Origin: Gammaproteobacteria bacterium
GTDB lineage: Bacteria > Pseudomonadota > Gammaproteobacteria > J044
Length of the DNA: 5,113 bases
Direction of reading: 5' to 3'
NCBI GenBank assembly: GCA_026995955.1
Contig: JALWNJ010000161.1
Span: 1-5,113 of the forward strand
Both the position numbers and the translations under genes were made by a program. This document shows, piece after piece, positions 1 to 3,495 of this stretch. The notes under the pieces were generated by a model. That model made no database searches and had not been told where the DNA came from. It saw nothing but the letters and a program-made list of their open reading frames with translations. Each line of letters opens with the position of its first letter. The stretch's first letter is position 1.

Positions 1-225
1 CGGATAACGCACGAAGATGTCCACCATCGGCACCGAGATCTGCGGATCCTCCTGCCGCGGCGGGAGCAGCAGGCCGATGAGTCCGAGCCCGACGCTGACC
101 ATCAGCAGCAGCGGGGTGAGCGGCGAATGGATGAAGGTCCGGGCCAGATTGCCCGCGACACCGAGATGCTGCATGTCCTGCAGCTCGGTGTCGTTGCCCC
201 CCGGATTCCCGTTGTGCTCACTCAT
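1..225 (-). CDS. RND efflux transporter permease subunit, N-terminal fragment (runs off left edge)
   Basis: This is the first 75 codons of an inner-membrane RND (AcrB-superfamily) proton-driven efflux permease; the rest lies beyond the left edge. It starts with MSEHNGNPGG and has a hydrophilic N-terminal tail of about 35 residues. The first transmembrane segment follows (about residues 36-53, beginning LTPLLLMVSVGLG). Next comes the periplasmic stretch PRQEDPQISVPMVDIFVRYP, which is highly characteristic of RND permeases at the exit of TM1. The ATG at 225 lies 55 bp after the stop of the adaptor gene, on the same strand, so the two are almost certainly co-transcribed and encode partner subunits. 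Only a weak purine-rich ribosome site (GAGAGTGAAG) precedes it. Family assignment is secure. Substrate class (hydrophobic compounds versus metals) cannot be decided from this fragment, and no outer-membrane channel gene is visible in the window. Confidence 0.9.
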   Translation of the reverse strand, partial: MSEHNGNPGGNDTELQDMQHLGVAGNLARTFIHSPLTPLLLMVSVGLGLIGLLLPPRQEDPQISVPMVDIFVRYP

Positions 226-280
226 GTCGTGTCTTCACTCTCTGGCAATTCTTGTTGGCGTTGTGCATTCCCGAGCGGGA

Positions 281-1435
281 TCAACGGCGATACGGCGACC
301 AGCCCGAACTGGCGCCGACCGGCGGGTGATCGACGATCTTCTCGCCGGGCTTCAGGCCGGAGAGCACCACGACCTTGTCCTTGCCATAGGGCGAACCGGG
401 ACGGATGACCCGCATCTCGGTCTTGCCGTCCTCGCGAACCACCAGTACCCGCGGCAGGCTGCCGCCGCCGATGATGGCCGATTTCGGAATGATGACCTTC
501 GGCCGGTCGTTGCTCGTGGAACTGTTGTCGGGGATCATGACCTCGGCATACATGCCGGGGCCGCCCTTCACCCCCACCGGCAGGTCGAACTTGACCGTCA
601 CCGTATGGTGCTTGTCGTCGGCCACCGGGTAGATCTGCGCCACCCGCGCCTCGACCTTCTCGCGGCCGACATCGAGGAAGGCCGGCACCACCATGCCGAT
701 CTTGAGGTTGCTGACCAGGCGGGCCGGGATGTCGCTCTTGATGCGCAGATACTTCACATGGGCGAAGTCGACCAGCGGCTTGCCCGGCTGAACGGTGTCG
801 CCGACCTCGACGTATTTCTTCATGATGACGCCGTCGAACGGCGCCACCGAGCGGGCGTCGCGGATCATCGCGTCCAGCTCGGCAATGGCCGAGCGCGCCT
901 GTTCGACCGCCGACATCGCCTGATGCACACCAGTCTGGCGGGCCACCAGGTCGGAATGGCGTTCGATGTCGGGATTGCCGTATCCCATCATGTCGCCCAT
1001 GTTCCTGGTGAATACATTGTCGAACAGGGTGGGCAGACCCATGCCGGGCATGCGGCTGGGGCTCTCGCTCTGCGGCGACCACAGCTCGCGGTTGTACTGC
1101 ACCTGGGCATTGCGCAGCGCCGCCTCGGCCTGCGCCAGCTGCGCCACGGCCGCCCGGCGCTTGGCCCGCAGTTCGCTGTCGTCGATGGCCACCAGCACAT
1201 CGCCGGCCTTGAAGCTGTCGCCGACATCCCCGGCCACGTACTTGATGGTGCCCGGGATCTGTGCCGACAGGGTGACCTCCTTGTACGGCACCACGGTGCC
1301 GCTGATCACCACCTGCCCCTGGGCATTGGTGGTCTCCACCGGTATCACTTCACTGGCCAGTACCGGCGCGGCGGCAGCCAGACCGAGAACGAACCCCAGA
1401 TTGATCAACTGTCTATGCATGCTGGAAGCCTTCAT
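281..1435 (-). CDS. RND efflux periplasmic adaptor (membrane fusion protein, HlyD/AcrA family)
   Basis: This 384-residue adaptor links an RND pump to an outer-membrane channel. A Sec signal peptide covers about residues 1-27 (hydrophobic INLGFVLGLAAAAP, likely cleavage VLA|SEV). The first barrel-sandwich (lipoyl-like) half is about 42-90, with PGTIKYVAGDVGDSFKAGD. The coiled-coil hairpin runs about 87-194, and the second lipoyl half about 197-225, with the family signature APFDGVI. Beta-barrel and membrane-proximal domains follow to the C-terminus (KSAIIGGG, GLKPGEKIV). Between the two hairpin helices is an unusual insert (about 118-160) rich in Met, Pro and Gly. I chose the ATG at 1435 because AGG lies 5 nt upstream and it gives a well-formed signal peptide. 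The ATG at 1420 is a credible alternative. The ATG at 1468 would overlap the preceding gene and has no ribosome site. The gene lies between the SCP2-like gene (22-bp gap) and the permease, on the same strand. Substrate is unknown. Confidence 0.92.
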   Translation of the reverse strand: MKASSMHRQLINLGFVLGLAAAAPVLASEVIPVETTNAQGQVVISGTVVPYKEVTLSAQIPGTIKYVAGDVGDSFKAGDVLVAIDDSELRAKRRAAVAQLAQAEAALRNAQVQYNRELWSPQSESPSRMPGMGLPTLFDNVFTRNMGDMMGYGNPDIERHSDLVARQTGVHQAMSAVEQARSAIAELDAMIRDARSVAPFDGVIMKKYVEVGDTVQPGKPLVDFAHVKYLRIKSDIPARLVSNLKIGMVVPAFLDVGREKVEARVAQIYPVADDKHHTVTVKFDLPVGVKGGPGMYAEVMIPDNSSTSNDRPKVIIPKSAIIGGGSLPRVLVVREDGKTEMRVIRPGSPYGKDKVVVLSGLKPGEKIVDHPPVGASSGWSPYRR

Positions 1436-1457
1436 CTGTGCCTGTTTGGATGCGCGT

Positions 1458-2140: not shown

Positions 2141-2145
2141 ACTGC

Positions 2146-2150
2146 GGAGG
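2146..2150 (+). promoter_or_regulatory. Ribosome binding site GGAGG deciding the activator start
   Basis: GGAGG sits 4 nt before ATG 2155, immediately after the repeat cluster. It supports this start over the in-frame ATG at 2113, which has no such site. Confidence 0.7.
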
Positions 2151-2154
2151 CCCC

Positions 2155-3495
2155 ATGCCCCATACCGAAGATCTGCTGCCCGTCCTTGAGACCGTCGTCT
2201 CGTTCATCGACGAGGGCGTCATCATCACCGAGCCCTCGGGCCGCATCATCTACCACAACCCGGCTGCCCAGGAACTGCTGGGCCTGGATCTGGACCATCC
2301 CCTCACCCACCTCCGTGATCTCGCCGGCCTCAACCTGCAGAAACGCATCCTGCAGGCCGCCATCGAGGCCGGCGAAGTGGATGCCGCCGGTCGTCCCAGC
2401 GGACGGTTCGTGCGTTTCCACGAGGCACTGGAGGTGCGTGGCGAATCCCGTTACCTGGGTTTCCATACCGGGCTCGTCAGCCTGGGTCGCGAGGAGCAGC
2501 GCCTGCGCCTGGTGCTAATCGAGAACCTCACCGAACGCAAGCAGCTGGAATCGGTGCTCAACCGCGACCGGCACGGCCCCATCATTACCAATGACCCGGC
2601 CATGCTGGAGATCCTGCAGCGCATCGATCAGGTTGCACCTACCGATGCCTTCGTCCTGCTACAGGGCGAATCCGGCACCGGCAAGACCCAGCTCGCGCGC
2701 CACATCCACAAGCTCAGCCGGCGCAGTCACCGCCCCTTCGTGGAGGTCAACTGCGCCGCCATCCCCGAATCGCTGATCGAGTCCGAGCTGTTCGGCCATC
2801 GCAAGGGGGCCTTCACCGGCGCCAGCCACGACCGGCCCGGCCGCTTCCAGACCGCCCACCAGGGCACCCTGTTCCTGGACGAGGTCAGCGAGATCCCGCT
2901 CAACCTGCAGGCCAAGCTGCTGCGCGCCATCCAGGACCAGGCCTTCGAGCCGGTGGGGGCCGACGAACCGGTACAGGTGGATGTGCGCATCATCGCCGCC
3001 TCCAACCGCAACCTGCGCGATCTGGTGGAGGAAGGAAAGTTCCGGGCCGATCTGTACTACCGGCTGGCGGTCATTCCGCTGGTGGTGCCGCCGCTGCGGG
3101 AACGGCCGGGCGACATCCCGTTGCTGCTGAAACACTTCTGCCGCGTGATGCAGGACCGCGGCTATCCGAGGGTGGAGGCCACGGACGGGGCGCGCCGCCT
3201 GCTGATGGACTATCCCTGGCCGGGCAACGTACGCGAGCTGGAAAATGCCATCGAACATGGCATCATCTGTGCGGTGGATGGCCGTATCGAGGTGGAGAGC
3301 CTGCCGCAGGACATCCGCCTCTATGGCAAGGCACCCCCAGCCCGCCCAGAGGAAGATCCGGAACTGGCCGAGGAGCGTCGCCGCATCCTGGCCGCACTGG
3401 AACAGGCCAACGGCAGTCGCACGGTGGCCGCCGGTCTGCTGGGCATCGACCGCAGCACCCTGTGGCGCCGCATGATGAAGCTCGGCATCAAGTAG
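2155..3495 (+). CDS. PAS-domain sigma-54-dependent transcriptional activator (AAA+, Fis-type HTH)
   Basis: This 446-residue bacterial enhancer-binding protein remodels sigma-54 RNA polymerase by ATP hydrolysis. An N-terminal PAS-like sensor covers about residues 8-125 (FIDEGVIITEPSGRIIYHNPAAQELLG), with a short linker (ENLTERKQLESVL). The AAA+ core is about 143-370. It has Walker A GESGTGKT (171-178), the sigma-54 contact loop GAFTGA (218-223), Walker B GTLFLDE (237-243), AASNRNL (281-287), FRADLYYRL with candidate arginine fingers R297 and R303, and sensor II WPGNVRELEN (355-364). A C-terminal Fis-type helix-turn-helix is at about 422-446 (AAGLLGIDRSTLWRRMMKLG). There is no phosphoreceiver, so it is probably a one-component sensor whose PAS ligand is unknown. 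ATG 2155 is chosen because GGAGG (2146-2150) lies 4 nt upstream; an earlier in-frame ATG at 2113 falls inside the repeat cluster. It is divergent from the RND operon, its likely target. Confidence 0.95.
   Translation: MPHTEDLLPVLETVVSFIDEGVIITEPSGRIIYHNPAAQELLGLDLDHPLTHLRDLAGLNLQKRILQAAIEAGEVDAAGRPSGRFVRFHEALEVRGESRYLGFHTGLVSLGREEQRLRLVLIENLTERKQLESVLNRDRHGPIITNDPAMLEILQRIDQVAPTDAFVLLQGESGTGKTQLARHIHKLSRRSHRPFVEVNCAAIPESLIESELFGHRKGAFTGASHDRPGRFQTAHQGTLFLDEVSEIPLNLQAKLLRAIQDQAFEPVGADEPVQVDVRIIAASNRNLRDLVEEGKFRADLYYRLAVIPLVVPPLRERPGDIPLLLKHFCRVMQDRGYPRVEATDGARRLLMDYPWPGNVRELENAIEHGIICAVDGRIEVESLPQDIRLYGKAPPARPEEDPELAEERRRILAALEQANGSRTVAAGLLGIDRSTLWRRMMKLGIK

Follow-up and report, generated by a model that had tools for sequence, protein, structure and literature searches.

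Taken singly, resistance-nodulation-division (RND) pumps, SCP2 proteins and PAS-sigma-54 activators are familiar, and SCP2 folds bind lipids and ubiquinone intermediates. For sulfur bacteria, the passage of insoluble sulfur across membranes, and its deposition inside or outside globules, is a long-standing question. Here we describe a gene row found on a 5,113-nucleotide stretch of DNA from a Gammaproteobacteria bacterium (GCA_026995955.1), which is the entire contig JALWNJ010000161.1 and is called the window below; its assembly spans 2.15 Mb and is 86% complete. An SCP2-like gene, an RND adaptor gene and an RND permease gene stand behind a predicted sigma-54 promoter sequence, and this module, as recognised from sequence, recurs in bacteria with sulfur-oxidation genes. 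The link of the module to sulfur oxidation is new here; searches of a library of open-licence papers turned up no paper that names the module, nor the SCP2-RND coupling, the permease tail described below or the distribution of the row.

The row is like RND tripartite efflux systems (AcrAB/MexAB, HAE1-like) in that a membrane fusion protein (MFP) adaptor gene lies beside the permease gene in the window and the full-length permease relatives have the ACR_tran core. Unlike in those systems, the SCP2-like gene comes first, a sigma-54 PAS activator takes the place of a local repressor, 24 of 31 complete SCP2-adjacent permeases of relatives carry a C-terminal tail with RRGIRLK or a variant at its end, and there is no outer-membrane channel gene in the window. 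The SCP2-like protein in turn differs from the SCP2 superfamily (2cx7, TT1886; the SCP2 domain of UbiJ) in having no Pfam match, an invariant W/N/D/R/A set of its own and a place before an efflux pump.

Three described systems come closest in regulation or gene content. In the FisR-SQR regulon of Cupriavidus and Acinetobacter, as outlined in PMC7315123, a sigma-54 activator is likewise divergent from sulfide-handling genes, among them that for sulfide-quinone reductase (SQR); regulatory-domain cysteines are reported there for Cupriavidus FisR and as absent from Acinetobacter FisR. The window-type activators, by contrast, have PAS input and no conserved cysteine column (36 sequences), and face the pump or, in locus L178, sulfide dehydrogenase genes plus the pump. 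Azospira suillum Dsui_3440-3443 holds an RND permease, an adaptor and SQR in one operon, a likeness in gene content; neither an SCP2 protein nor a sigma-54 activator is named for it in the excerpted account (PMC5358917). Finally, sulfane sulfur is reported as a signal for RND pump expression via MexR and MarR (PMC11211675, PMC8614764), which ties RND expression to zero-valent sulfur; these pumps differ in being governed by MarR repressors with reactive cysteines, and sulfur is a signal there, not a shown cargo.

Organisation of the gene row

A first-pass annotation of the window had named an activator, its likely enhancer, a sigma-54 promoter, an SCP2-like gene, an adaptor and the start of a permease, and all of these parts were recovered at the positions it gave:

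1-225, minus strand: N-terminal 75 residues of an RND permease, truncated where the contig stops, with the stretch PRQEDPQISVPMVDIFV common to relatives' permeases; the clade is full-length in relatives.
281-1468, minus strand: RND periplasmic adaptor (MFP), assigned by homologues and by PF16576 (1e-14), PF13437 and TIGR01730 (2e-48).
1458-1916, minus strand: SCP2-like protein, 152 residues (ATG at 1916) or 147 residues (GTG at 1901); core residues 19-148.
1940-1955, minus strand: sigma-54 -24/-12 element TGGCATGCCAATTGCT, exact match, score 21/22; predicted promoter of the SCP2-adaptor-permease row.
2007-2012, plus strand: single distal TGTTGC half-site, in a similar place in the sister genome.
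2101-2138, no strand assigned: candidate upstream activating sequence of five TGTTGC/GCAACA half-sites, including the palindromic TTGTTGCAACAA; the sister genome (L036) has the same array, and other activator loci also contain half-sites.
2155-3495, plus strand: PAS-AAA+-Fis sigma-54 activator, 446 residues; PAS_8 at 11-61 (1e-6), Sigma54_activat at 143-309 (7e-71; PF00158), HTH_8 at 407-442 (2e-10; PF02954).

On the minus strand the order of transcription is SCP2-like gene (1916-1458), adaptor (1468 or 1420 to 281) and permease (225 to the contig end), with the activator divergent from all three. The row is likely co-transcribed, since the adaptor start overlaps the SCP2-like gene (1468) or sits 37 bases after it (1420) and only 55 bases separate adaptor from permease; a scan of 1400-2300 for terminator-like sites returned one, on the strand opposite to the row. 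The likely start of the adaptor is the ATG at 1420 (MHRQ...), which begins a signal-peptide-like sequence by eye, and the nearest database entries have 377-386 residues. The 75-residue permease fragment gave no Pfam or NCBIfam profile match. Of the pump pair read in the first-pass annotation, the adaptor and the permease start stand, with the permease reduced to 75 residues and no outer-membrane channel gene in the window (a genome-wide search with the OEP profile was not run).

Recurrence of the module

A contig scan with the alignment of SCP2-like sequences found at least 514 relatives, and the best 80 were retained as loci, with genes called by a simple in-house caller; as the alignment used to rank them by similarity was itself largely pump-linked, the pump-linked share of this set is biased upward, and some loci are the same organism twice (for example L022/L036 and L025/L077). 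An adaptor gene lay within 1.3 kb downstream of the SCP2-like gene on the same strand in 45 of the 80 loci, joined by a permease in 42. Among the rest, an adaptor or permease lay elsewhere in the locus in 7 and neither was present in 23, while 5 contigs ended less than 800 bases past the gene. The proposal that the parts form one module is borne out by the SCP2-adaptor-permease order in 42/80 loci, and the recurrent placement of the SCP2-like gene beside pump genes is an outcome that the first-pass annotation had named as support. The inclusion of the activator holds in part: a divergent PAS-sigma-54 activator with matching promoter elements was present in 11 of the 45 loci with an SCP2-adaptor pair, and the activator is thus an optional and not a fixed part of the module.

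A less biased sample was provided by 369 genomes of the window's class, in which the SCP2-like gene was found in 75 genomes spread over 38 family codes. Of its 94 copies, 36 lay within 6 kb of a permease of the same clade as the row's, 33 of these upstream on the same strand. By genome, 64 had both gene and clade permease, 10 the gene only, 10 the permease only and 285 neither; two SCP2 matches of at most 250 bases and 15 permease rows below 380 bits had been dropped before counting, and the window genome, whose permease is cut, is counted among the 10 with the gene only. The concern that the small gene might occur mostly outside such loci is therefore justified for individual copies (36/94 near a clade permease), while 64 of the 74 gene-bearing genomes encode such a permease.

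Association with sulfur oxidation

Across the 369 genomes, dsrA was found in 118 and soxB in 150. One or other marker was present in 71 of the 75 genomes with the SCP2-like gene versus 93 of the 294 without it (Fisher 6e-25, an optimistic value because shared ancestry is ignored), and in 72 of 74 genomes with a permease of the clade; the window genome itself carries soxB and two dsrA fragments. Autotrophy was considered as a confounder and rejected, as the association survived stratification by RuBisCO, which was present in 176 genomes: among RuBisCO-positive genomes a marker was found in 64/67 with the gene versus 66/109 without, and among RuBisCO-negative genomes in 7/8 versus 27/185. RuBisCO has a weaker association of its own (Fisher 0.003 within marker-positive genomes).

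In a few loci the genes next to the relatives lead in the same direction. In L086 (titled Acidihalobacter; L211 is apparently the same contig) the activator and the SCP2-like gene are followed by an SQR gene, whose product matches solved sulfide-quinone reductases (E 2e-190), and then by a gene without Pfam match. L206 likewise has activator, SCP2-like gene and SQR, the last assigned by clustering only, and genes of the SQR cluster are also present in the Acidithiobacillus loci L063, L068 and L082. The activator of L178 faces a cytochrome c gene followed by fccB, adaptor and permease, and in L164 genes for a NapC-type cytochrome, a cytochrome c and FccB come after that of the permease. Both FccB proteins were confirmed by PF21706/PF09242, that of L178 also against a solved sulfide dehydrogenase (E 2e-142). 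This evidence points to sulfur metabolism for the module, a connection absent from the earlier reading.

Several further arrangements were seen in the gene listings. L166 resembles L164. Small exported proteins rich in glycine and aromatic residues are encoded near some SCP2-like genes (L145:7540-7929, L065:6926-7573, L025:8448-9032); we take these to look like sulfur globule proteins, and the two that were scanned, from L065 and L025, had no NCBIfam match. Short-form permeases of the clade adjoin predicted membrane oxidase genes in L186 (1982-10645) and L160, with a cytochrome c gene, named by eye, also in L186.

Activator and predicted promoter

In the window, TGGCATGCCAATTGCT matches once exactly and once more, at another place, with 1 mismatch, where 0.13 matches would be expected if up to 1 mismatch is allowed. 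Scored out of 22 against the sigma-54 consensus, the region upstream of the SCP2-like gene reached at least 20.5 in 11 of 19 loci with an activator versus 0 of 62 without; with the cut at 19.5 the counts were 13/19 versus 2/62. The window contains 7 TGTTGC half-sites where 2.4 would be expected, and one of 200 shuffled sequences had as many. Genome-wide, TGTTGC-N0-12-TGTTGC occurs at 15 places versus 3 in the control, and 3 of the 15 fall in the window's array.

The same half-sites accompany the activator elsewhere. The divergent regions of 14 activator loci contained 2-6 TGTTGC/GCAACA half-sites in every case, compared with 0.08-0.28 expected for uniform bases; L063, L065, L068, L082, L086, L088 and L090 were left out of this count as their activator is not divergent from the SCP2-like gene, and four of these (L063, L068, L082 and L090) also lack a good sigma-54 score. 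In 17 further activator loci, partly from the same organisms, at least one half-site was present in 17/17 and the best sigma-54 score was at least 19 in 15/17 (without a shuffle control). We thus predict that the array and the element are the activator's cognate enhancer and -24/-12 promoter. The divergent neighbour of the activator is the adaptor in several of these 17 loci, and the cytochrome c gene before fccB in L178, so the regulon would be the pump and not the SCP2-like gene alone. In L178 (10281-13705), where the activator relative faces cytochrome c, fccB, adaptor and permease, the sulfide dehydrogenase genes may share the activator's regulon.

The GAFTGA loop is present in the window's activator and absent from 5 of 36 aligned activators, whose PAS region has an invariant N35. 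The sensor part has no conserved cysteine: no column exceeded 30% cysteine in residues 1-142 of the 36 sequences, and persulfide-sensing cysteines were rejected accordingly.

The SCP2-like protein

The GTG start at 1901 is preceded by AGGAG, and no signal peptide was seen by eye. Scans of the protein against Pfam (E up to 1) and NCBIfam (E up to 0.1) returned no family, SCP2 profiles included, and sequence matches to solved structures were rejected as weak (best E 0.003, to an HNH nuclease). Comparison of the predicted model with known structures, by contrast, recognised the SCP2 resemblance that sequence profiles had missed, in keeping with the first-pass expectation; an SCP2 fold is thus predicted for the small protein. 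Invariant among 16 aligned sequences are W34, N35, W86-D87-x-R89-A90, W95 and W98.

The window genome has two further SCP2-like paralogues elsewhere. Descent of all pump-linked genes from one clade was rejected: on a tree of 81 rows the linkage label, taken from gene clusters (44/81, and so differing from the adjacency counts in the 80 loci), needs 16 changes against a shuffled mean of 27. Pump linkage is clustered on the tree but has no single origin; the row of the window forms a long branch.

Among the paralogues, L030:2055-2516 has a signal-peptide-like N-terminus by eye, unlike the others. Four that lie away from pumps (L027, L057, L061 and L071) adjoin a gene that by eye resembles prfC, for peptide-chain release factor 3, which may point to a second role. 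Records titled Phycisphaera (L088), Halobacteria archaeon (L089) and Helicobacteraceae (L085) also carry the gene. The L088 copy is identical to that of Acidithiobacillus L063 over the compared region, so that a mis-binned contig is likely, at least for L088.

The permease clade and its tail

The permease of L023 (1151-5206) has the ACR_tran core (PF00873, E 2e-141), with 6vej as its nearest solved chain, followed by MdtB and MexK. Many permeases of the clade have an extra tail of about 110-350 residues that ends in RRGIRLK or a near variant; being of low complexity and rich in Ala, Lys and Pro, it is likely disordered. Of 40 motif-bearing permeases, 25 have in this tail a 19-residue hydrophobic stretch (Kyte-Doolittle at least 1.6) that may form an additional membrane helix. 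The RRGIRLK motif occurs 41 times among the gene calls of 94 loci (some organisms twice), always in a clade permease, and may resemble the short basic ParB box that stimulates ParA.

Twelve of 92 permeases have an open C-terminus and were excluded, leaving 80 counted as complete, one of which ends in a masked run. The tail motif was present in 24/31 with an SCP2-like gene in the fetched locus, 18/41 with the gene elsewhere in the genome and 3/8 from genomes without it; three SCP2-adjacent permeases (L150, L151 and L153) are short and without tail. A ParA-like gene was in the fetched locus of 22/45 motif-bearing versus 3/35 motif-lacking permeases (Fisher 9e-5).

The contig of the sister genome ends inside an AESR repeat tail of the permease, and contigs break within permease tail repeats in L022, L147, L157 and L183. 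Downstream of the permease, part of the relatives (L120-L211) encode a small exported protein (by eye), a DUF4412 protein, a ParA-like ATPase and a TPR protein, followed by a DUF302 protein, a membrane coiled-coil protein (by eye) and a dynamin-like GTPase. A literature search for a dynamin/ParA link to the module gave only unrelated uses of both words.

On the other side of the row, the window ends in two genes that the sister genome (G001) shares:

3534-4556, plus strand: galE, 3' of the activator, kept in the sister genome (L022).
4563-5102, minus strand: hisD, 3' part, facing the galE/activator side, kept in the sister genome (L022).

Discussion

We rank sulfur first as cargo because of the SQR and FccB neighbours, the dsrA/soxB association and the Azospira precedent, and tentatively hold it possible, stopping short of calling it probable, that what the row exports is zero-valent sulfur in hydrophobic form, or a related hydrophobic compound of sulfur arising from sulfide oxidation. 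In such a scheme, the PAS domain would sense a state or ligand of active sulfur oxidation, and the activator, bound at the TGTTGC/GCAACA array, would open the sigma-54 promoter. The SCP2-like protein would then take up the hydrophobic species from the cytoplasm or the inner leaflet into its cavity, and the permease with its adaptor would drive it outward by proton exchange; in relatives, the cytoplasmic, likely disordered tail ending in RRGIRLK might serve to dock a partner protein, for which the ParA-like ATPase encoded nearby is a candidate. The substrate and the carrier role of the SCP2-like protein, and with them the first-pass proposal of a pump whose hydrophobic substrate this protein binds, are what we infer; the scheme is weakest on what the cargo is chemically.

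Several observations weigh against sulfur export. Lipid or quinone cargo fits as well, since SCP2 folds bind lipids and ubiquinone intermediates. No clade permease lies within 6 kb of 58 of the 94 SCP2-like copies, some through contig ends; with most copies away from the pump and two paralogues elsewhere in the window genome, the protein has uses outside the row. Fifty-one genomes with both dsrA and soxB lack the SCP2-like gene, so the module is optional and not needed for sulfur oxidation, and the Fisher tests ignore the shared ancestry of the genomes. The lack of conserved cysteines speaks against FisR-like persulfide sensing as in Cupriavidus. The Azospira suillum operon (SQR, RND permease, adaptor and a gene of unknown function) cuts both ways: its reported high expression during H2S oxidation, together with Bar-seq data suggesting that it takes part, speaks for sulfur, but deletion of the whole operon left the H2S oxidation rate unchanged (PMC5358917), and the authors read the RND induction during H2S oxidation as stress or export of metal sulfides. 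By analogy, high expression with an unchanged rate would fit a product-handling role.

Among the other explanations, trafficking of a lipid or quinone, in which the ligand of the SCP2-like protein is a fatty acid, a hopanoid or a precursor of quinones and this lipid is moved across the envelope of sulfur oxidisers by the RND pump, is rather unlikely though to be taken seriously; it draws on the known ligands of SCP2 folds and does not by itself explain the SQR/FccB neighbours or the dsrA/soxB association. We give a little less credence to a broad detoxification pump. In that case the activator would respond to a toxicant or to membrane stress in sulfidic habitats, the pump would rid the cell of metals, metal sulfides or amphiphiles, and the SCP2-like protein would serve as an accessory binder. 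RND pumps are commonly of such a kind, and the matches of the adaptor and of a relative's permease include CzcB and CzcA-like proteins; metal-sulfide export or stress is also how the Azospira authors read the induction of their pump (PMC5358917). For a generalist pump, however, it would be unusual to have a dedicated carrier-like partner and to occur with a sulfur marker in 72 of the 74 genomes that have a clade permease.

Instead of carrying cargo, the SCP2-like protein might regulate the pump or plug it from the cytoplasm, for instance when docked to the cytoplasmic tail of the permease. The tail motif is indeed commoner in SCP2-adjacent permeases (24/31 versus 21/49 of the others, Fisher 0.003), but it goes more strongly with ParA adjacency, and L150, L151 and L153 show that an SCP2-adjacent permease can be without tail; we regard such a role as distinctly improbable. 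That unrelated genes came together by chance, or through synteny within one lineage, is scarcely credible. The sister genome shares the galE and hisD flanks as well as the row; the same gene order is, however, found with different flanks both in the window's class and in alphaproteobacterial records, and chance co-location is rejected by the adjacency in 45/80 loci and the co-occurrence of gene and permease in the 369 genomes.

Taking sulfur export further, the row could belong to a dedicated machine of sulfur oxidisers, in which a cytoplasmic SCP2-type carrier collects hydrophobic zero-valent sulfur and the RND pump passes it to the periplasm or outside for storage as globules, with a ParA-like ATPase positioning the pump at a cell site via the RRGIRLK box of its disordered tail and a dynamin-like GTPase and a membrane coiled-coil protein shaping the deposit. 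We consider this full version improbable; if true, it would supply a missing route for sulfur across the inner membrane. Should the cargo be a lipid or quinone, the row would still couple an SCP2-type carrier genetically to an RND transporter. The module supplies named genes, a promoter sequence and a regulator for testing sulfur transport in organisms relevant to bioleaching, sulfide removal and vent symbioses.

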